Below, one piece after another: positions 16,202 through 46,628 of a stretch of DNA of 64,000 nt. Below the pieces are notes generated by a model. It saw only the letters and a list, made by a program, of their open reading frames with translations, did not search any database and had not been told where the DNA came from. Both the position numbers and the translations under genes were made by a program. Origin of the DNA: Rudaea sp. 3F27F6 (lineage in GTDB: Bacteria; Pseudomonadota; Gammaproteobacteria; Xanthomonadales; Rhodanobacteraceae); contig NZ_SCNG01000001.1 of assembly GCF_005503555.1 (NCBI RefSeq), forward strand, positions 1,612,001 through 1,676,000. Reading direction: 5' to 3'. The stretch's first letter is position 1; each line of letters begins with the position of its first letter.

Positions 16202-16205
<4 letters not shown>
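15885..16205 (+). CDS. ureB: urease subunit beta
   Basis: 106 aa. It begins with the typical MIPGEI and contains [31 protein letters not shown] and the C-terminal GFRG. UreB is the second small structural subunit of urease. ATG 15885 is chosen over an in-frame TTG at 15870 since UreB proteins start at MIPGE. The stop overlaps the ureC start (ATGA), a sign of translational coupling. Confidence 0.97.
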
Positions 16206-17914
<1,709 letters not shown>

Positions 17915-31896: not shown

Positions 31897-33204
31897 ATGA
31901 TCCTCCGCCACCTCGCCTTGATCCTCGCCGCCTCGTTCGCAGGCGCCGTTCCGCTCGCCGCGCAGGAAGCCGCAAAAACCAAATTCGACGCGCCCGCGCC
32001 GACGCCGCCGTTCACCGATTTTCGCTACGAGGCGCCGGGCACCACACGCAAGATCACCCCGGCCGATCTGCCGGTGCCGTACGCGACGCAATCGGTCGGC
32101 AACGGCCCGCGCATGGTGCCGCGACCCGCGAATGCGTGGCCGAAGGCACCGCCGGGATTCAAGGTCGAGCTGTTCGCGAACGACCTGAAGAATCCGCGCC
32201 AGATTCGCCGCGCACCGAACGGCGATATTTTCGTTGCCGAGACTGCCGCGGGACGCGTCCGCGTGCTGCGCGGGATCGGCGCGGACGGCAAGCCAAAGCA
32301 GACGGAAATCTTCGCGACCGATCTGAATGCGCCTTTCGGCATCGCCTTCTATCCGCCGGGCACCGATCCGCAATGGATCTACATCGGCAACACCGATGCC
32401 GTCGTGCGTCTGCCTTATCGCAACGGCGACCTCAAGGCGCGCGGCAAGCCCGAGAAGCTCGCCGACCTGCCGACCGGCGGCCATTCGACGCGCGACGTCG
32501 TGTTCTCGGCGGACGGCAAGCGCATGTTCGTCGCGGTCGGTTCGCGCTCCAACGTCGACGATCCGGACACCACGCCAGAGGAAAAGCTGCGCGCGAATAT
32601 ATTGGTATACAAGCCCGACGGCAGCGAGCGAAAAGTATTCGCCTGGGGCATCCGCAATCCGGTCGGTCTGGCCATAGACCCACAATCGGGCGACTTGTGG
32701 ACCTCGGTCAACGAGCGAGACATGCTCGGCGACAACCTCGTGCCCGACTACATCACCCGCGTGCAGGAGGGCGGTTTCTACGGCTGGCCGTGGTGGTACA
32801 TCGGCGCAAACCAGGACCCGCGCCTCGCCGGCAAGCGCGCCGACCTCAAGGACAAGGTCATCGTGCCCGACGTGCTTCTGCAGCCACACAATGCCTCGCT
32901 CGGCCTGGCCTTCTACGACGGCAAGCAGTTTCCATCCGAATACGCAGGCGACGTCTTCGCCGCCGAGCACGGCTCGTGGAACAAGGCCGCACGCGCCGGC
33001 TACGAAGTGATCCGCGTACCGCGCCACGGCACTGCGAAGGCAAGCGGCGAGTATCAGGATTTCCTCACCGGCTTCGTCCTCGACGACGGCACGGTCTGGG
33101 GCCGCCCGGTCGGCGTCGCCGTCGCCACCGACGGCTCGCTGCTCGTCACCGACGACGGTTCGGGCTCGATCTGGCGCGTGAGCTACGCCAAGGCGAAAGA
33201 CTAG
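31897..33204 (+). CDS. PQQ-dependent sugar dehydrogenase (sorbosone dehydrogenase type)
   Basis: 435 aa. A signal peptide ends near 'PLAAQE', so it acts in the periplasm. The six-bladed beta-propeller of the GSDH/sorbosone dehydrogenase family is marked by GFKVELFANDLKNPRQIRRAP, GGHSTRDVVFSADGKRMFVAVGS, WGIRNPVGLA and EGGFYGWPWWYIG (shown in short pieces). It would oxidise a sugar or aldose with PQQ as cofactor; the substrate is not predictable. ATG 31897 follows AGGA. No PQQ biosynthesis gene is in the window. Confidence 0.85.
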   Translation: MILRHLALILAASFAGAVPLAAQEAAKTKFDAPAPTPPFTDFRYEAPGTTRKITPADLPVPYATQSVGNGPRMVPRPANAWPKAPPGFKVELFANDLKNPRQIRRAPNGDIFVAETAAGRVRVLRGIGADGKPKQTEIFATDLNAPFGIAFYPPGTDPQWIYIGNTDAVVRLPYRNGDLKARGKPEKLADLPTGGHSTRDVVFSADGKRMFVAVGSRSNVDDPDTTPEEKLRANILVYKPDGSERKVFAWGIRNPVGLAIDPQSGDLWTSVNERDMLGDNLVPDYITRVQEGGFYGWPWWYIGANQDPRLAGKRADLKDKVIVPDVLLQPHNASLGLAFYDGKQFPSEYAGDVFAAEHGSWNKAARAGYEVIRVPRHGTAKASGEYQDFLTGFVLDDGTVWGRPVGVAVATDGSLLVTDDGSGSIWRVSYAKAKD

Positions 33205-33304
33205 GCGGCGCGGACAAGGAATTTCGCGATCGGGATTTTGAGACCCGCCTTGAAGTCGCAAGACTAGGCACGCACGAGCACTTCGCCTAACATGCTCGCC
33301 GTCC

Positions 33305-33629
33305 GGGCCTATAGCTCAACGGTTAGAGCAGAGGACTCATCGAAAGGTGCCGCCGCGCGGAAACGCGCGGACGGGAACGGGATGAATTCAGGGAAACCGC
33401 AGCGGTTCGGCCGGCGGCAATCCTGAGCCAAGCCGGCGGTGCACCGCCGGAAGGTGCAGAGACTACCTGAGGGCTGCAAGTGCCCTTCATAACAGGCTTA
33501 GAGCGTCCCGCACCCCACCAGCTTCGAGTCGCCTCGAAGCTGCGGGTGAAGAGATAGTCCGCGCCGAACGGAAACGTTCGGAACACGCGAATCCTTTGGT
33601 TCTAGGTTCGAATCCTAGTGGGCCCACCA
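33305..33629 (+). tRNA. tRNA-Ile (CAU anticodon, lysidine type) interrupted by a group I intron
   Basis: The exons are 33305-33340 and 33590-33629. Joined, they form a full cloverleaf: acceptor GGGCCTA/TGGGCCC, D-stem GCTC/GAGC, anticodon stem GAGGA/TCCTT with loop CTCATAA (anticodon CAT), T-stem CTAGG/CCTAG with loop TTCGAAT, and encoded CCA end. The 8-nt D-loop and TTTGG after the anticodon stem resemble tRNA-Ile2, read by TilS-made lysidine, rather than elongator tRNA-Met, though tRNA-Met is not excluded. It lies at the left edge of the accessory region. Confidence 0.9.
33341..33589 (+). ncRNA. ORF-less group I intron (IC3-like) in the tRNA-Ile anticodon loop
   Basis: 249 nt inserted between anticodon position 36 (T) and A37. 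The last exon base is T (for the U-G pair with GGTG as internal guide) and the last intron base is G (omega-G). Core elements can be traced: P element AATTCAGGGAAACC (33385-33398), Q AATCCTGAGCC (33419-33429, pairing TCAGG/CCTGA as P4), R GGTGCAGAGACTA (33453-33465) and S GAAGAGATAGTCC (33548-33560), with GACTA/TAGTC as P7. The size and core strongly resemble the Azoarcus tRNA-Ile intron. No homing endonuclease is encoded. Confidence 0.9.
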
Positions 33630-33665
33630 AATAAGCTTCACCCAAGACTTTTGTGGGTGAAAGCA

Positions 33666-33692
33666 TAGTTTGGCCGTTTTGGCCAAACTATC
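33666..33692. repeat. short perfect inverted repeat after the tRNA
   Basis: ATAGTTTGGCC (33666-33676) and GGCCAAACTAT (33682-33692) around GTTTT. A third partial copy, CATAGTTTGGCC, follows at 33707. It could terminate the tRNA transcript or mark an element edge; neither is shown. Confidence 0.55.
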
Positions 33693-33786
33693 CTTGCAAT
33701 GCAAGCATAGTTTGGCCACGGATCGATCCAGAAAGGTTAGGCTCCAATCCACCGCCCGCTTCAGCGCGGCATAGGCAACAAAGCCG

Positions 33787-34566: not shown

Positions 34567-34845
34567 GACCCAAAGCGGACATTCGGTGTCTCAGAAACTA
34601 TGGCCGTCCATTCCGTCTAAAACCTCCGCGCCCATCCGAGTCAATCAGTAAGAGTAACCCCCGCTTCCGATTGTGCGAGCGCGTGGGCAACGTAGTTGAA
34701 TCCAAGATCTAAAGTGGACCGCTGCTGGCTAGTGAGCCGAAGTTTGAATAGTGTGACCACAAAGGGCCACGATAAGTGGTGCCATCCGGCTGGCTTTGGA
34801 ACGATAGTCTCATCCTGTGAGCCTCGATCGACTAGGATCCTTGCA

Positions 34846-36306
34846 ATGCGCTTCGATTACGCCACCATAGAAATGCTGCGCCAGCACCATCCGGCGTGGC
34901 GGCTATTGCGCGCCGACCACGCGGCGCTTCTGGCCAGTTTTCTGCACCGAATTTTCGTGGCACCAAACATGCGTAATATCGCCCAGGCCGATCTGGTGGA
35001 AGCCCTCGAGGATGAGCTGTTCGATCTACGTGAGCAGCTAGGCAACGACGCGTTCCCGAAGACGGCCCTGCAGTATCTCGACGATTGGGCGGCCAATGAC
35101 AAGGGCTGGTTGCGCAAGTTCTACGGACCCGGTTCGGATGAACCGCAGTTCGATCTGACTCCCCCCGCCGAAAAGGCGATCCTCTGGCTCGGCACGTTGG
35201 GCGAACGCGGCTTCGTCGGTACCGAATCGCGCCTACTGACCCTGTTCGAACTGCTGCGACAGATCAGCGAGGGCACCCAGACCGATCCGGCGGCGCGGGT
35301 AGCGGAACTGCAGCGGCGTCGCGCCGAGATCGACACTGAGATCAGTCAAGTACTGGGTGGATCTCCACCGCTGCTGGACGATACGGCGGTGCGCGATCGC
35401 TTCCAGCAGTTCCTGCAGCTGGCACGTGAGCTGCTGGGCGATTTTCGCGAAGTCGAGCACAACTTCCGCGAGCTCGACCGGCGGGTCCGCGAGCGCATCG
35501 CGCTCTGGGAAGGTGGCAAGGGCGCGCTTCTGGAAGATGTCATGGGCGAACGTGATGCCATCGCCGAGTCCGATCAGGGACGCAGCTTCCGTGCGTTCTG
35601 GGACTTCCTCATGTCCAGCCGCCGACAGGAAGAGCTGTCCGAGTTGCTGGAACGAGTCCTGACCCTGCCGGCGGTGAACGAACAGCAGCCGGACACGCGG
35701 TTGCGGCGCGTGCACTACGACTGGCTGGAAGCCGGCGAACACACACAACGCACCGTCGCCGAACTCAGTCGTCAGTTGCGCCGCTTTCTCGATGACCAAG
35801 CCTGGCTGGAGAACCGCCGCATCATGGACCTGCTGCATTCAATCGAGGCCCATGCCCTGGCACTGCGTGATGGGCCGCCTGCCGACGTGACCATGCACAT
35901 CGACGGCACCGCTGCCTCGATTGAACTGCCGATGGAGCGGCCGCTGTACACGGCCGCCCTGCAACCCAAGATCGTGGACGTGGTGCTGAAAGCCGACGGC
36001 GCGGACGTGGACGATGCCGCGCTGTATGCGCAGGTCTTCGTGGACAAGGCCCGGCTGGTCCGCCACATCCGCCATGCGTTGCACGGGCGCAGCCAGATCA
36101 CGCTGGCCGAACTGGTCCGGATGCAGCCTATGCAGCAAGGCCTAGCCGAGCTGGTCGCCTATCTGCAACTGGCCGACGATGGCTTTCGGAGCACAGTCGA
36201 CGAGCACGTGCACGACCCGGTGGCCTGGGAAGGCCTGGATGCCGGGGGCCGCCCCTATCATCGCCAGGCCCGCCTGCTGCGGGTGATCTTTCTGGGGGCC
36301 GCATGA
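34846..36306 (+). CDS. jetA: Wadjet type I JetA (DUF3375, kleisin-like subunit)
   Basis: 486 aa. It starts MRFDYATIEMLRQHHPAWRLLRADHAALLASFL (first 20 residues typical of DUF3375) and continues with long helical, Gln/Arg/Glu-rich segments. In Wadjet/MksF-type complexes this protein is the kleisin that links the SMC-like dimers. ATG 34846 follows TAGGATCC; an in-frame upstream start is rejected. The next three genes overlap in order jetB-jetC-jetD, so the operon is intact. It acts against plasmids by topology sensing and cleavage. Confidence 0.92.
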   Translation: MRFDYATIEMLRQHHPAWRLLRADHAALLASFLHRIFVAPNMRNIAQADLVEALEDELFDLREQLGNDAFPKTALQYLDDWAANDKGWLRKFYGPGSDEPQFDLTPPAEKAILWLGTLGERGFVGTESRLLTLFELLRQISEGTQTDPAARVAELQRRRAEIDTEISQVLGGSPPLLDDTAVRDRFQQFLQLARELLGDFREVEHNFRELDRRVRERIALWEGGKGALLEDVMGERDAIAESDQGRSFRAFWDFLMSSRRQEELSELLERVLTLPAVNEQQPDTRLRRVHYDWLEAGEHTQRTVAELSRQLRRFLDDQAWLENRRIMDLLHSIEAHALALRDGPPADVTMHIDGTAASIELPMERPLYTAALQPKIVDVVLKADGADVDDAALYAQVFVDKARLVRHIRHALHGRSQITLAELVRMQPMQQGLAELVAYLQLADDGFRSTVDEHVHDPVAWEGLDAGGRPYHRQARLLRVIFLGAA

Positions 36307-36950
36307 TGATGGACAACTCGTCCGCCTCGCTTGCCGGCGATGACTTGCCCGTGCTGGCGGTGAAGCTGCTCAAGGGTGTGCTCTACCAGGAATCCGATCC
36401 GCAGCTATGGGGTAGCCTGCTCGGATTGCAGTCGCAGGTACGCGACTACCTCTCAGTGCTGGGGCTGGAGCTAATTCTGGACGAAGCCGAAGGCTACGCC
36501 TTCTTGCGGTCACGACGTGCCCCCGAGGCCGACAATGGCATTGCCGACCCGATTCCAAGACTGGTGGCACGCCGGCAGCTGTCGTTTCCCGTCAGCCTGC
36601 TGCTCGCCTTGCTGCGCCGCAAGCTGGCCGAAGCCGATGCTAGTGGCGGCGATACCCGGCTCGTGCTCACACTTGAGGAAATCGTTGAGATGGTGCGGGT
36701 ATTTCTGCCCCCCTCGAGCAACGAAGCGCGGGTACTCGACCAGCTCGAAATCCATCTGGGCAAAATCGCGGACCTTGGCTTCTTGCGCCGCATGAAGCCA
36801 GCTGCGGGACAGGGCGGGTCGCAACCTGCGTTGTATGAGGTACGCCGCATCCTCAAGGCATTCGTGGATGCGCAGTGGTTGGCGGACTTCGATGCGCGCC
36901 TGGCGGCGTATCGGGCGCAAATAGGGGGGGGCGAGGATGAACCGGGTTGA
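36303..36950 (+). CDS. jetB: Wadjet type I JetB (DUF4194, KITE-like subunit)
   Basis: 215 aa. It starts by overlapping the jetA stop (ATGATGATGG; any of three ATGs may be used). The winged-helix-like sequence LAVKLLKGVLYQESDPQLW, followed by RDYLSVLGLELILDEAEGYAFL (quoted in two parts), matches DUF4194. JetB bridges the kleisin and the SMC-like ATPase. Its end overlaps jetC by 14 bp. Size and position match type I Wadjet loci. Confidence 0.92.
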   Translation: MMMDNSSASLAGDDLPVLAVKLLKGVLYQESDPQLWGSLLGLQSQVRDYLSVLGLELILDEAEGYAFLRSRRAPEADNGIADPIPRLVARRQLSFPVSLLLALLRRKLAEADASGGDTRLVLTLEEIVEMVRVFLPPSSNEARVLDQLEIHLGKIADLGFLRRMKPAAGQGGSQPALYEVRRILKAFVDAQWLADFDARLAAYRAQIGGGEDEPG

Positions 36951-39900
36951 AGAGCTAGCGTACGACGACGTTGCGCATCTCGCGCCAAGCGAGGCCGAGC
37001 ACACCGAGGGCTCCCTAGCCGGTTTCCGACTTCAGCGTCTGGAAGTATTCAATTGGGGCACCTTCGACCAACGCGTATGGACACTGACGCTGGATGGGCG
37101 CAACACGCTGCTGACCGGCGACATCGGCTCCGGCAAGTCCACGCTGGTCGACGCGGTGACCACCCTGCTGGTACCAGCCCAGCGCATCGCCTACAACAAG
37201 GCCGCGGGTGCCGACAGCAAGGAGCGCTCGCTGCGCTCCTACGTGTTGGGCCACTACAAGTCCGAGCGTAGCGAGATCACTGGCACCGCCAAGCCGGTGG
37301 CACTGCGCGACCACAACAGCTATTCGGTCATCCTCGGCGTGTTCCACAACACCGGCTACAACCAGACGGTCACCCTGGCACAAGTCTTCTGGATGAAGGA
37401 CGGAGTGGGGCAGCCGGCACGGTTCTTTGTCGGCGCCGAGCGGGACTTGTCGATCGCCCACGACTTCTCGGGCTTCGGCAGCGAGATCGCCAAGCTGCGG
37501 CGTAAACTGCGCGGCCTGGGCGCCGAGGTCGAGGACAACTTTCCACCCTACGGCGCGTGGTTCAAGCGCCGCTTCGGCATCGACAACGAACAGGCATTGG
37601 AACTGTTCCACCAGACCGTGTCGATGAAGTCGGTCGGCAACCTGACCGACTTCGTACGCGGGCACATGCTCGAGCCCTCGGACGTCGGAGCACGCATCCA
37701 GGCGCTAATCGGACATTTCGACGACCTCAACCGTGCGCATGAGGCGGTGCTCAAGGCCAAGCGGCAGGTAGAGCTACTGACCCCGCTGGTGAGTGACGGC
37801 GAGCGCCTGAACGGCCTGCTGGCCGAAACCGAAGATCTGCGCGCCAATCGCGATGCGCTTCACGCGTACTTCGCCGGGCTCAAACACGACCTGCTCGAAC
37901 GCCGCCTGGCCCTGCTGGCCCAAGACCATGCAAGGCACAGCGCCCAATTGCAACGGCTGGAAGAAAGCCTCAGCCTCCGCCGCACGGACGAAATCGAACT
38001 CCGACGGGCGATCCATGACAACGGTGGTGACCGGCTCGAACATCTGGATGCGCAGATCCGGAAAACCGGCGACGACCTCACCCGCCGTCGCCAGCGCGCA
38101 GAGCAATACACCGCCCTCCTGCGCGAGATCGAACAGCCGCCCGCCACCGATGCCGGTGAGTTCCAGGCACAGCGCCAGCAGTTGGGCGGGTGGATCGAGG
38201 CAGCTCGCAACCAGGAAGCGGATCTGGACAACGACCGTACCGAACTGGCAGTACAGGTACGCGACGGCCGTGAAGCACACGCACGCCTGACCGAAGAGAT
38301 CGAAAGTCTCAGGCAGCGCCGCTCCAAGGTGCCGGACGACCAGATCAAGCTTCGGCGCATCCTGTGCGCCGCGTTGGATCTGGATGAGGAAACGCTGCCC
38401 TTCGCCGGCGAGCTAATCCGGGTGCGGGAGGATGAGCAGGCATGGGAAGGCGCGGCCGAGCGCCTACTGCGTGGCTTCGGCCTGTCGCTGCTCGTACCCG
38501 ATGCGTACTACGCGCGCGTGGCCGACTGGGTCGATCGCACCCATCTGCGCGGTCGCCTGGTGTACTACCGGGTACGAGAGCGCAAACAGGGCGATCTGCC
38601 GTCGCCACATCCGCATGCGCTGGTCCGCAAGCTGGAGATCCATCAGGAGACGCGCTTCTACGACTGGCTGGAGCAGGAGTTGTACCGCCGGTTCGACATC
38701 GCCTGCTGCGAGACGCCCGAGCAATTCCGGCGGGAAGTCCGCGCCGTCACTCGCACCGGACAGGTCAAGATGCCAGGCGAACGGCACGAGAAGGACGACC
38801 GGCATCGGCTGGACGATCGTGGTCGCTATGTATTGGGCTGGAGCAACGCCGACAAGATCCGAACTCTCGAGGAGGAGCGCGGGGAGCTAGAGCGTACGGT
38901 GGCAGAGGTCGCCAGCAGGCTCACCATCCTGCAGAAAAAGCAAGAAGATCTGAAAGCGCGCCAGACGACGCTGGGCAAACTGGAGGTGTACGACGACTGG
39001 CGTGAACTCGACTGGCGCGGCCTGGCCGTGGAGCTGGCCCGGCTTGAAGACGAAAAGCAGGCGCTGGCGCAGTCCTCAGACCAGTTACAACGACTCAGCG
39101 AGCAACTGAAGGCGCTGCAAGCACAGATCGCAAGCGACGAACGCGAACGGAGCGAGCACGAAGGCAAGTTGGGCGGTGTTGTGCAGAAGCAGGATGATGC
39201 GCATGCCCTGCAGCAGCAAACCAGGCAGATCCTGGACGCTCCCGATGGCGCTGTACACGCCGCACGATTCCAGGTGTTAGCCGAACTGCGGGAAGCCGCG
39301 CTAGGCGAACACCAGCTCAGCGTGGAATCGTGCGACAACCGCGAGAGCGACTTCCGCCGGTGGCTGCAGGACAAGCTCGACGCTGAGGACAAGCGGATCG
39401 TCCGGCTGCGCGAGAAGATCGTCAACGCGATGGGCGACTTCCGGCGCGAGTACCCGTTAGATACCGCCGAGTTCGACGCCAGCATCGAAGCCCTCGATGA
39501 ATACGGCAAGATGCTGCAGGCCTTGCAGGCCGACGACCTGCCCCGGTTCGAGGCGCGATTCAAGGAACTGCTCAACGAGAACACCATTCGCGAGATCGCC
39601 AACTTCCAGTCGCAACTGTCCCGCGAGCGAGAGACCATCAAGGACCGCATCGACCGCATCAATGGCTCGCTAGTGCAGATCGACTACAACCCAGGGCGCT
39701 ACATCCTGCTGGAGCCGCAAGCCAGTCAGGATGCGGACATCCGCGACTTCCAGTCCGACCTGCGAAGCTGCACCGACGACGTGGTGGGCGCCAACCAGGA
39801 TGCCCAGTACTCGGAGGCCAAGTTCCTGCAGGTCAAGGCCATCATTGATCGCTTTCGCGGACGCGAGGGCCTTTCGGAGCAGGACCGGCGCTGGACCGCC

Positions 39901-40341
39901 AAAGTCACCGACGTGCGCAACTGGTTCCTGTTCGGCGCCAGCGAGCGCTGGCACGAGGACGACACCGAGCACGAGCACTACTCCGATTCCGGCGGCAAAT
40001 CCGGCGGCCAGAAGGAGAAGCTGGCCTACACCATCCTCGCCGCCAGCCTGGCCTATCAGTTCGGGCTGGAATGGGGCGAGGCGCGTTCGCGCACCTTTCG
40101 GTTCGTGGTGATCGACGAGGCTTTCGGGCGCGGCTCCGACGAGTCGGCACAGTACGGTTTGACCCTGTTCGCCAAGCTCAACCTCCAACTGCTGATCGTC
40201 ACTCCATTGCAGAAGATCCACGTGATCGAGCCGTTCGTGTCCAGTGTCGGCTTCGTCCACAATGAAGCCGGGCGCGCTTCGAAGCTGCGCAATCTTTCCA
40301 TAGCTGAGTACCGTGCCGAGAAGGCGCGGGTCGCTGGATGA
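36937..40341 (+). CDS. jetC: Wadjet type I JetC (SMC/MukB-like ATPase)
   Basis: 1134 aa. Walker A is GDIGSGKST (residues 61-69). Two long coiled-coil arms rich in Gln, Arg and Glu (about 260-470 and 630-900) flank a hinge-like globular part. The C-terminal head has the ABC signature SGGKSGGQKEK (about 1018) and Walker B RFVVIDEAFG (about 1055). It forms dimers that extrude DNA loops in an ATP-driven way and present small circular DNA to JetD. All ATPase motifs are intact. Confidence 0.95.
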   Translation: MNRVEELAYDDVAHLAPSEAEHTEGSLAGFRLQRLEVFNWGTFDQRVWTLTLDGRNTLLTGDIGSGKSTLVDAVTTLLVPAQRIAYNKAAGADSKERSLRSYVLGHYKSERSEITGTAKPVALRDHNSYSVILGVFHNTGYNQTVTLAQVFWMKDGVGQPARFFVGAERDLSIAHDFSGFGSEIAKLRRKLRGLGAEVEDNFPPYGAWFKRRFGIDNEQALELFHQTVSMKSVGNLTDFVRGHMLEPSDVGARIQALIGHFDDLNRAHEAVLKAKRQVELLTPLVSDGERLNGLLAETEDLRANRDALHAYFAGLKHDLLERRLALLAQDHARHSAQLQRLEESLSLRRTDEIELRRAIHDNGGDRLEHLDAQIRKTGDDLTRRRQRAEQYTALLREIEQPPATDAGEFQAQRQQLGGWIEAARNQEADLDNDRTELAVQVRDGREAHARLTEEIESLRQRRSKVPDDQIKLRRILCAALDLDEETLPFAGELIRVREDEQAWEGAAERLLRGFGLSLLVPDAYYARVADWVDRTHLRGRLVYYRVRERKQGDLPSPHPHALVRKLEIHQETRFYDWLEQELYRRFDIACCETPEQFRREVRAVTRTGQVKMPGERHEKDDRHRLDDRGRYVLGWSNADKIRTLEEERGELERTVAEVASRLTILQKKQEDLKARQTTLGKLEVYDDWRELDWRGLAVELARLEDEKQALAQSSDQLQRLSEQLKALQAQIASDERERSEHEGKLGGVVQKQDDAHALQQQTRQILDAPDGAVHAARFQVLAELREAALGEHQLSVESCDNRESDFRRWLQDKLDAEDKRIVRLREKIVNAMGDFRREYPLDTAEFDASIEALDEYGKMLQALQADDLPRFEARFKELLNENTIREIANFQSQLSRERETIKDRIDRINGSLVQIDYNPGRYILLEPQASQDADIRDFQSDLRSCTDDVVGANQDAQYSEAKFLQVKAIIDRFRGREGLSEQDRRWTAKVTDVRNWFLFGASERWHEDDTEHEHYSDSGGKSGGQKEKLAYTILAASLAYQFGLEWGEARSRTFRFVVIDEAFGRGSDESAQYGLTLFAKLNLQLLIVTPLQKIHVIEPFVSSVGFVHNEAGRASKLRNLSIAEYRAEKARVAG

Positions 40342-41513
40342 GCTGGACACGGCCGGCGGACCTGGTGGCACAGGTTGGCAAGGCTTGGGACAGCGGCGCG
40401 CTGCTGGCACCCTTGGCCGGCGGCGAATCGCCGTTCCCGATGCGGTTAAGGCTGCGCGGCCCCACCTCGGCCGACCTGATCGATCGTTTCGACGAGGTGC
40501 GGGTCTGGGTGACCGAGCTGCAGGCACTGCGGCACATCCGCATGCAGACGCGCCAGTTCCGGCACCGCGTGCGCGGCAACACCATCCTGCCCGACGAAGC
40601 TTGGGTCGATACGCTGGACAATGCGCTCTCGCTGATCGACCGCAAAGATAAGGCCGCCGCCTTCGAGGCCCAGGTTCAGCAGACCCGCGACCGTCAGCCC
40701 AGTTTGCTCGGCTGGCTGCACAAATGGCCGTTGCGGGCGTTGGCCCTGGACGCGGACTGGTGCCGCTTGCTGGACGTCGTCGCCTGGATGCAGGCGCACC
40801 CACGTCCCGGCATCTACCTGCGCCAGGTCGACATTCCCGGTGTGCACAGCAAATTCATCGAACGCCATCGCGGCGTGCTGATTGAGCTGTTCGATACCGC
40901 CCTTCCGGAGAGCGTCATCGATACCGTGGCAGGCGGCGTCAGTGGCTTCCAGCGCCGCTACGGTTTTGCTGCCAAGCCCGAGCGCGTGCGCTTTCGGGTG
41001 CTCGACTCGGCGCTTTCACTGCTGCCTGGCGTAACCGGGGGCGATGTCACGCTGGACGTGAACAGCTTCCGCGCGCTGCGCTGCAACGCCACGCGCGTGT
41101 TCATCACCGAGAACGAAACCAACTTCCTCGCCTTTCCTTCAGTGACTGGCAGCCTGGTGCTGTTCGGCGCCGGCTATGGTTTCGATGCGCTAGACGGAAC
41201 CGACTGGCTCCGGCAATGCCAGCTGTACTACTGGGGCGACATCGATACCCACGGCTTCGCCATCCTTGATCAGCTACGCGCCCGCTTTCCCCAAGTGCAG
41301 GGTTTCCTGATGGATCGGGCTACGCTGATGGCATTCGAGCCGTTCTGGGGTCGAGAGGAACATCAACTGACACGCGACTTGCCGCGGCTGCGCGACGAGG
41401 AGTACAGCCTGTACGACGATCTGCGCGATCAACGCATTCGTGACAATTTGCGGCTGGAGCAGGAGTTCATCGGTTTCGACCGCGTGCATGGCGCACTGGT
41501 GGCATTATGTTGA
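40338..41513 (+). CDS. jetD: Wadjet type I JetD (DUF3322/DUF2220, TOPRIM nuclease)
   Basis: 391 aa. An N-terminal DUF3322-like part precedes a TOPRIM-type catalytic region. TENETNFLAF (about residues 255-264) supplies the Glu and YYWGDIDTHGF (about 297-307) the DxD metal ligands. JetD is the endonuclease that cuts plasmid DNA held by the JetABC complex. It starts at ATG 40338, overlapping the jetC stop, and closes the operon. No damage is seen, so the system looks functional. Confidence 0.94.
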   Translation: MSWTRPADLVAQVGKAWDSGALLAPLAGGESPFPMRLRLRGPTSADLIDRFDEVRVWVTELQALRHIRMQTRQFRHRVRGNTILPDEAWVDTLDNALSLIDRKDKAAAFEAQVQQTRDRQPSLLGWLHKWPLRALALDADWCRLLDVVAWMQAHPRPGIYLRQVDIPGVHSKFIERHRGVLIELFDTALPESVIDTVAGGVSGFQRRYGFAAKPERVRFRVLDSALSLLPGVTGGDVTLDVNSFRALRCNATRVFITENETNFLAFPSVTGSLVLFGAGYGFDALDGTDWLRQCQLYYWGDIDTHGFAILDQLRARFPQVQGFLMDRATLMAFEPFWGREEHQLTRDLPRLRDEEYSLYDDLRDQRIRDNLRLEQEFIGFDRVHGALVALC

Positions 41514-45335: not shown

Positions 45336-46628
45336 TCACATGGCGATGTTGGTCGTCGAACTTTCTGTCTGGCGCTTAATTTCCTCCCTTAACAAGTTCT
45401 TCGGCAATCCAGTTCTAGCTCTCACAGAGGAGAGAAGTGCCTTTTTGCTGAAGGGGCGATCTTCGACCTGGCTCCAACGAGCGATGGTCTTACGGACATT
45501 CGAACGGCACTGCGTCGAAGTAGATGCCCGTCTCCGTCGCCTGCTCAGCTGATAGGTCTGGATTATCTCGCTCGACTGCTTGGGTAGGTGATATCGCAGC
45601 GCCCCCGCAGAGACACCGAGCTTCCTAGCTACCTCGGTCAGGGAAAGCGCTTCACTGGCCGTCTCGATAATGCGGGTGGCCTCGTTAGCTAGTACCTGAA
45701 TACTCCTGATTCGACGGCGTCTTTGAGGCGCGATGACATCCGGAAGCGCCTCTTTCATCCCCCTGAGGATAGATTTGTTCGTCCCTTGCAATCGCCCAAG
45801 AAGAAGGTCGACCAGCGGAACGTTCAGCCAAAAGGCAATTCGCAAAGCGGAAATCAGTGTCAACGGTTCGGTTGGATCCGCGAACCGAACGCACGCGTCA
45901 CGCGGCAATATGTAGAGCACTTCTTCGCTGCAGTCTTCCCATGGCTCATCGAGAAGGCGCCGCAGCACGTCGCTCACGCCGTGCTGTGGAAAGCGAATGC
46001 CTGGATGAGTGGCTATGTACCCAACTACAGACCGAATATTCTCTGCGTAGAAGTCCCGACTGATATCGCTCAAGGTTGTTTTGTCTAAACGCGCTTTGCA
46101 ATGAATGCACTCCGCTAGGCTCCTGCGAGCCAAATATCCGTCCTGGATTCTTCCGCAGGAACCACAGTGATCGTGAAGACAGACCCCGTGGACCTCGCAA
46201 GTCTCGACAGTGAGAACTTGCCAGGCCAGCTCAAAGTACGGCTCGCCGCAATTCCTCATCTGTTCGGATAGGCAAGCAGGGCACCAACGAAGGCATGAGG
46301 AAAATGCTTTCATTGGACGACAGAGAGCACTGCCCAGTGCAAGAAATGTCGTCTGTTCTATATCGGGAACAGGAACAGAGAGGCCGGAGGCCAGCGACTC
46401 CAAGATCAACTGCGTCGTGTCGTTGGGTCGGATCAGTGTCGAGATGCGGGACTGAAGAATTCCAGCTCGTCGTGGAGCATCGGGCCAACAGTAACGTTCG
46501 ACGATGGATGAAAGGAATTTGCCGGACGTGATTGCGTGCACGCGGGCAAGCCGAAGCAAGTAGGAGCTCAGTGCTTCGACGTGAGAAGTACCTGCACCGC
46601 GAATGGGGAGAGGCAACAGCCAGCTCAT
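45336..46628 (-). CDS. tniQ: TniQ/TnsD-like target-selection protein
   Basis: 430 aa. The N-terminal TniQ domain shows SHVEALSSYLLRLARVH and the zinc-finger Cys/His set: WCPACL, CEVHGVCLHDHCGSCG and CIHCKARL. The C-terminus has a helix-turn-helix (LSLTEVARKLGVSAGALRYH), as in TnsD-type proteins that read a specific DNA site. TniQ recruits TnsC to the target. ATG 46628 lies 2 bp after the tnsC stop, in one operon. Length is between short CAST TniQ and full TnsD. Confidence 0.9.
   Translation of the reverse strand: MSWLLPLPIRGAGTSHVEALSSYLLRLARVHAITSGKFLSSIVERYCWPDAPRRAGILQSRISTLIRPNDTTQLILESLASGLSVPVPDIEQTTFLALGSALCRPMKAFSSCLRWCPACLSEQMRNCGEPYFELAWQVLTVETCEVHGVCLHDHCGSCGRIQDGYLARRSLAECIHCKARLDKTTLSDISRDFYAENIRSVVGYIATHPGIRFPQHGVSDVLRRLLDEPWEDCSEEVLYILPRDACVRFADPTEPLTLISALRIAFWLNVPLVDLLLGRLQGTNKSILRGMKEALPDVIAPQRRRRIRSIQVLANEATRIIETASEALSLTEVARKLGVSAGALRYHLPKQSSEIIQTYQLSRRRRRASTSTQCRSNVRKTIARWSQVEDRPFSKKALLSSVRARTGLPKNLLREEIKRQTESSTTNIAM

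Follow-up and report, generated by a model that had tools for sequence, protein, structure and literature searches.

A P7.1-bearing group I intron in the only tRNA-Ile(CAU) gene detected in Rudaea sp. 3F27F6

A split tRNA gene and its insert

The stretch of Rudaea sp. 3F27F6 DNA analysed here (the window, 64,000 nucleotides) carries at 33305-33629, on the plus strand, a tRNA-Ile(CAU) gene whose two exons are separated, directly behind the anticodon, by a group I intron of 249 nt. The letters of the window run GGGCC...GACTCAT (33305-33340), then the insert, then AATCC...ACCA (33590-33629). When the two flanking pieces are joined they give a tRNA of 76 nt with a CAU anticodon and an encoded CCA, and ARAGORN draws a full cloverleaf from it, wobble pairs included, while in the unspliced window ARAGORN detects no tRNA. 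The insertion lies in the anticodon loop, between tRNA positions 36 and 37. The insert (33341-33589) starts after U33340 and has G33589 as its last base, as the sequence-only reading had it. The features of the locus are listed in Table 1.

ARAGORN labels the joined exons tRNA-Met(cat), as it does the other CAU tRNAs shown to it. The isoleucine identity was assigned by exclusion and by likeness to the intronless genes of relatives: the exons form a CAU cloverleaf which is distinct from the tRNA-Met genes, and tilS is present in the genome, which together point to a tRNA-Ile2(CAU). The two other CAU genes of the genome are Met-like, in agreement with the earlier assignment to isoleucine.

The insert itself is matched by the Rfam group I intron model (Intron_gpI, RF00028) at 33329-33581, over model positions 1-253 of 253, with a score of 66.6 bits against a cut-off of 50 bits (E 1.1e-14). 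The group I intron proposed earlier, for which a covariance-model score had been named as the check, is upheld by this score. At an E threshold of 0.001 the genome (5.70 Mb) yields no other group I match. The 322 nt at 33308-33629 fold better than 100 out of 100 shuffled versions (z -4.38), and a chance fold is ruled out by the RF00028 score, this shuffle test and the covariation described below. No homing endonuclease frame was seen in the 249-nt intron among the listed frames of at least 80 aa, the sole overlying one being antisense (87 aa).

Table 1. Exons, intron and intron helices at the tRNA-Ile(CAU) locus, in window positions, with the support for each; counts refer to the 67 aligned homologues.
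Feature	Position	Strand	Support
5' exon of tRNA-Ile(CAU), acceptor stem to C34-A35-U36	33305..33340	+	joined fold; empty sites
Group I intron, 249 nt, ORF-less	33341..33589	+	RF00028 66.6 bits; empty sites; covariation
P1, exon CAU + intron C with internal guide GGUG, GAAA loop	33338..33349	+	4 pairs, invariant in 67/67
P2 hairpin, GAAA loop	33350..33374	+	double changes in 10/10 pairs; 89.6% of cells paired
P3, 5' strand	33378..33384	+	partner 33504-33510; 6/7 pairs invariant
P4 (33387-33392/33422-33427)	33387..33427	+	5/6 pairs invariant
P5, enclosed by P4	33397-33417	+	double changes in 4/7 pairs; 83.6% of cells paired
P6/P6a	33428..33454	+	P6 2/2 pairs invariant; P6a double changes in 6/7
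P7, 5' strand	33461..33465	+	partner 33555-33559; invariant in 67/67; both strands in selecting pattern
P7.1, irregular hairpin between P7 and P3	33466..33496	+	67/67 homologues
P3, 3' strand	33504..33510	+	partner 33378-33384; covariation count
P8	33511..33548	+	double changes in 6/9 pairs
P7, 3' strand	33555..33559	+	partner 33461-33465
P9.0 (33561-33563/33586-33588)	33561..33588	+	double changes in 2/3 pairs
P9, GAAA loop, enclosed by P9.0	33564-33581	+	double changes in 6/7 pairs
Terminal omega-G, 3' splice site	33589..33589	+	67/67 homologues, but G in selecting pattern
3' exon of tRNA-Ile(CAU), A37 to encoded CCA	33590..33629	+	joined fold; empty sites

Fold of the intron and its support

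The intron has the core helices P3 to P8, including the P3/P7 pseudoknot, by which a group I intron is recognised. P7 is the guanosine-binding helix. The U-1.G wobble pair in P1 marks the 5' splice site. The joint between P7 and P3 is occupied by an irregular hairpin, P7.1, with a lower stem CCUG/CAGG and an upper stem AGGGC/GCCCU, of which two of the five upper pairs show double changes.

Covariation was counted over 67 distinct tRNA-Ile introns of 232-280 nt, chosen by a pattern search of loci and then aligned. The pattern asked for at least 60 nt between the P7 strands and for the motif GCAGAGACTA, and it also constrained portions of the splice sites and P7, so that part of the invariance is built in. 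The structure has 96.1% of its cells paired over the 67 homologues, double changes in 36 of 76 pairs and a covariation score of 0.309, compared to 0.047-0.065 when the partners are slid by 1-3 columns; having been written from the intron of the window, the structure is favoured over its slid versions. None of 500 shuffles reached any of the five measures. Covariation is seen in P2, P5, P6a, P8, P9, P9.0 and the upper stem of P7.1, while P1, P4, P6, P7, the lower stem of P7.1 and the greater part of P3 show scarcely any change and are supported by conservation. RNAalifold, unaided, finds most of the same helices; P7 is missing, being part of a pseudoknot and beyond what the program can draw.

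The splice sites need to be read with the selecting pattern in mind. The U.G pair in P1 and the terminal G are common to all 67 homologues; of these letters, the exon T and the final G were set by the pattern, and the G of the guide was left free. The pairs of P1 are invariant, and P1 is therefore without covariation support. The sequence GGACTCAT before the splice site is likewise common to 67/67 and is part of the pattern that chose them. Because the pattern included omega-G, empty sites are the better evidence for the 3' boundary.

Such sites were sought in relatives. A DNA search of 60 of these gave some match in 42, from which 30 loci (L002-L031) were compared. The intron lies between both exons in six (L002-L007, the window's own included) and is present in L009 with a more divergent 5' exon. 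Among the 22 loci without an intron match (L010-L031), 21 have the exact empty site, with ...GACTCAT running directly into AATCC...; the 22nd, L022, consists of the 3' half only. In the genus, RF00028 matches in 5 of 16 genomes, that of the window among them, and four others (G002, G003, G005 and G011; loci L190, L193, L194 and L195) have an intronless tRNA-Ile(CAU). The remaining locus, L008 (in G058), holds a decayed intron-bearing copy of tRNA-Ile, with the 3' exon missing and both guide and P7 changed, upstream of an intact intronless tRNA-Ile. The arrangement illustrates the loss of an intron through replacement.

Copy number and the probable need for splicing

The tRNA covariance model finds 48 tRNA genes above cut-off in the genome, and ARAGORN reports a tRNA at all 48. 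Two have a CAU anticodon, an initiator-like and an elongator-like tRNA-Met, and among the 48 of this draft assembly there is neither an intact tRNA-Ile(CAU) nor a UAU anticodon; the earlier reading had made the need for splicing conditional on the split gene being the only copy. Searching the genome for an exact, intact tRNA-Ile(CAU) anticodon arm gave two places, neither of them a tRNA; the tRNA model, this pattern and ARAGORN thus gave no second copy in the assembly. The assembly is in 16 contigs and is listed as 100% complete; an intact copy could have escaped assembly. Lysidine synthase TilS is encoded (163.4 bits, cut-off 93.6), and AUA codons occur in all five neighbouring genes counted, at 1-2 per gene. 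Since no other tRNA-Ile(CAU) or UAU tRNA is detected, tilS is present and AUA is used, splicing is probably essential in Rudaea sp. 3F27F6. Some tRNA genes of the same genome look odd, among them a second tRNA-Ile(GAU)-like and a tRNA-Val(AAC)-like gene.

We conclude, with a probability of about 0.93, that the insert is a functional, ORF-less group I intron, predicted to be self-splicing and of a lineage marked by P7.1, in the only tRNA-Ile(CAU) gene detected. In the pre-tRNA, the intron core would fold, and the internal guide GGUG would hold the U of the CAU anticodon in P1. An external guanosine bound in P7 would attack after the anticodon U, and the freed 5' exon would then attack after omega-G, releasing the joined tRNA. 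TilS would turn C34 into lysidine, after which the tRNA could read AUA. The route to a tRNA that is probably essential would run through a ribozyme, which hides the tRNA from ARAGORN, a standard finder.

A degenerate intron that no longer splices, in a tRNA pseudogene, with AUA read by another tRNA missing from the draft, is very improbable. Decay of this kind does happen, as the copy in L008 beside an intact intronless tRNA-Ile illustrates, and a genome in 16 contigs leaves some room for a missing gene. However, the core helices and splice-site features of the Rudaea intron are intact and agree with 66 homologues, its exons form an intact tRNA, and the set of 48 tRNA genes offers no substitute. 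Still harder to credit is removal of the insert by a protein tRNA endonuclease, as in archaeal and eukaryotic tRNA introns, rather than by a ribozyme. No bacterium is known to have tRNA-splicing endonucleases of the archaeal/eukaryotic type, and the full-length group I covariance match, together with a covarying group I fold, speaks against it, although the intron does adjoin the anticodon, near the canonical position of such introns as given in PMC4090602.

Distribution, lineage and viral relatives

Bacterial tRNA introns of this class had been described as rare in the sequence-only reading. This does not hold in the order, where RF00028 matches in 50 of 398 sampled genomes and tRNA-Ile(CAU) is the host of 42 of the 50 matches (41 via the exons, and L109), the others being in five tRNA-Leu, two tmRNA-like and one tRNA-Arg-like gene (exons by eye). 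Across the order they are a frequent feature and no oddity. The authors of tRNAscan-SE 2.0 have reported group I introns from the tRNA-Ile2 genes of Acidovorax and Burkholderia, and give a reason why tRNA finders miss tRNA-Ile2 (PMC8450103). The Rudaea intron shares with these the tRNA and the group I class, a likeness drawn from that article's description only. The kind is already known, and the Rudaea intron is another member.

Across the class there are 70 matches in 56 of 369 genomes, of which 50 matches were inspected; the remaining 20 include the window's own. The hosts of the 50 are 23 tRNA-Ile with the hairpin, 12 tRNA-Leu, four tRNA-Thr, two tRNA-Arg, one tRNA-Lys, one tmRNA-like, six others that are perhaps rRNA and one hairpin-less tRNA-Ile (L166). 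Host labels in both order and class were assigned by eye. L166 (G444) is a hairpin-less group I intron which seemingly lies before, not after, the anticodon of tRNA-Ile(CAU). In the phylum, 25 of 299 genomes have matches. No match to the intron was found on plasmids.

The hairpin occupies a joint of 34-72 nt, in two parts, in all 67 introns of the aligned set (65 by pattern, two by eye), a count that is partly built in because the selecting pattern shuts out hairpin-less introns such as L210; L164, a tRNA-Ile intron with a hairpin by eye, was missed by the pattern and stands outside the 67. When introns of the order are chosen by their exons only, CCTG opens the joint that follows P7 in 41/41. 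The tRNA-Ile intron L207 has a hairpin with other letters. All four tRNA-Thr introns and the tRNA-Lys intron inspected have a hairpin at the P7-P3 joint; none is seen in those tRNA-Leu introns in which the joint was inspected, nor in L210.

L210 (G911) is a tRNA-Ile(CAU) interrupted at the same site as in Rudaea, between the anticodon and A37. Over 149 positions its core shares 73% of letters with the Azoarcus core as used here, and L210 serves as a stand-in for the Azoarcus type. Subgroup IC3, to which the Azoarcus type belongs, has no hairpin between P7 and P3. The Rudaea intron was not placed in IC3, having the hairpin at 33466-33496 that L210 and the tRNA-Leu introns, used as comparison, lack. 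The earlier comparison with Azoarcus thus stands for the tRNA, the group I class and, in L210, the site, but not for the structure: besides the extra hairpin, the letters of P3 and P4 differ, and in trees L210 groups with tRNA-Leu and tRNA-Arg introns. The Azoarcus tRNA-Ile(CAU) intron is mentioned in PMC3984707.

Subgroup IA2 was also considered. According to PMC3428280, the Pf-WMP3 DNA polymerase intron was assigned to IA2 by a P7.1 and a P7.2 linked by G-U-A. IA2 introns and the Rudaea intron both have helices between P7 and P3, and a T4 intron (45652-45883, L288) has two hairpins linked by GUA (by eye), whereas the Rudaea intron has one irregular hairpin, and the assignment was rejected. 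Covariance models for group I subgroups exist (PMC11835236).

Trees were built with the P7-P3 joint cut out, leaving 141-144 columns. The first, of 101 rows, splits two lineages at 100/99: on one side (20 rows) are tRNA-Leu, tRNA-Arg and hairpin-less tRNA-Ile introns, and on the other (81 rows) are the tRNA-Ile introns with the hairpin, tRNA-Thr introns, viral introns and L202, which carries the tree label Lys and is on re-inspection more like tRNA-Arg(UCU). L207 lies on a long branch among the tRNA-Ile rows. The viral rows number 45, after removal of three tRNA-Ile contigs, of rows without a clear P7 end and of identical rows. Adding the Azoarcus core (second set, 23 viral rows) gave the split at 100/100, with Azoarcus and L210 paired at 100/89. 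A third set (18 viral rows), which omits nine long-branch viral rows, L166, L202 and L207, all chosen after the first tree, gave 99/99; the bootstraps of the second and third sets had not settled. Many forks are open in these trees and several long branches meet, L210 among them. They contain 26 of the 53 non-Ile introns; one further row was dropped as misread, and among the 26 lost are every tmRNA-like and every rRNA-like row, together with L145 from tRNA-Lys.

It is unlikely that the Rudaea intron is an IC3 intron of the Azoarcus type, inherited at the same site, which has merely gained a hairpin; this alternative concerns the lineage only. The insertion site is that of L210, the motif AGAGACTA is common to both, and the AU test does not reject a tree with all tRNA-Ile introns in one clade (second set, p 0.101, log-likelihood 52 lower; third set, p 0.163, 22 lower). 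Against this, even with the hairpin left out, L210 and the Azoarcus core fall with the tRNA-Leu and tRNA-Arg introns and the Rudaea intron falls with tRNA-Thr and viral introns in all three splits, and P3 and P4 differ as well. On these alignments the two-lineage reading is favoured, though unproven. The P7.1 lineage would span tRNA-Ile(CAU), tRNA-Thr and tRNA-Lys genes of the class as well as viral contigs and phage genes, and would be distinct from an Azoarcus-type lineage able to occupy the same tRNA site. In the literature searched, mostly without subscription journals, no statement of a P7.1 lineage in tRNA-Ile genes was found, which does not prove its absence.

The viral relatives come mainly from a scan of IMG/VR, which gave 55 contigs with related introns. 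The scan required a joint of 20-50 nt, and the prevalence of the hairpin in phages is thus biased. Three contigs (L228, L229 and L231) begin inside a tRNA-Ile intron; of these, L228 and L229 were scanned, and both have a tyrosine integrase soon after the tRNA 3' exon, which looks like prophage integration at the tRNA-Ile gene. The other 52 have no tRNA-Ile exon motif near the core, and some are tmRNA introns, judged from the flanks by eye. The ends of the joint are complementary in all 52, with lower P7.1 stems that have changed in a compensatory manner, for example CTGG/CCAG, GCGG/CCGC and ATGG/CCAT. Contig L227 contains an HNH-domain frame (E 3.5e-6) that borders directly on P3 and continues across the core; downstream of it comes a phage capsid frame. 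At 232-280 nt, the tRNA-Ile introns are too short for such a frame.

Among named phages, ten records matched, none covering 80% of the query, and six Acinetobacter phage matches consist of the 5' tRNA half only. The terL intron of Vibrio phage 11895-B1 (NC_020843) has core letters 78.5% identical to the Rudaea intron over 28% of the query, and the same lower P7.1 stem CCTG/CAGG. It differs in lying in a protein gene and in having a further hairpin in the same joint. The record NC_020843, 126 kb long, contains five RF00028 matches.

The site in tRNA-Ile(CAU) may have been invaded independently by the Azoarcus type and by a P7.1 lineage shared with phage genes, the latter possibly moving between phages and tRNA genes with the help of prophages integrated at the intron-bearing gene. 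We regard this as a tentative proposal, with slightly less than an even chance of being correct. The shared core links tRNA introns of the class to phage introns, and suggests a testable route for the spread of ORF-less tRNA introns.

Around the Rudaea gene itself, no second copy of the tRNA 3' end that could serve as an attachment site was found in the window within three mismatches. A promoter scan of 33180-33760 gave no sigma-70-like site, and the two terminator-like sites in the same interval lie on the minus strand. Related inverted arms surround TGGCCAAACTAT at 33658-33718, shortly past the 3' end of the tRNA gene; these are not seen in the 90 nt compared from the flank of R. cellulosilytica, whose strain DSM 22992 has the same intron. 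About 1 kb after the tRNA gene, at 34696-41510 (+), there is a full set of Wadjet genes, JetA, JetB, JetC and JetD (PADLOC, Pfam). Elsewhere in the window, the Rfam family 5_ureB_sRNA matches at 16355-16643 (-) with 126.6 bits. The match is antisense to the urease alpha-subunit gene at 16202-17911, and therefore most likely stems from conservation of the coding sequence, not from a regulatory RNA.
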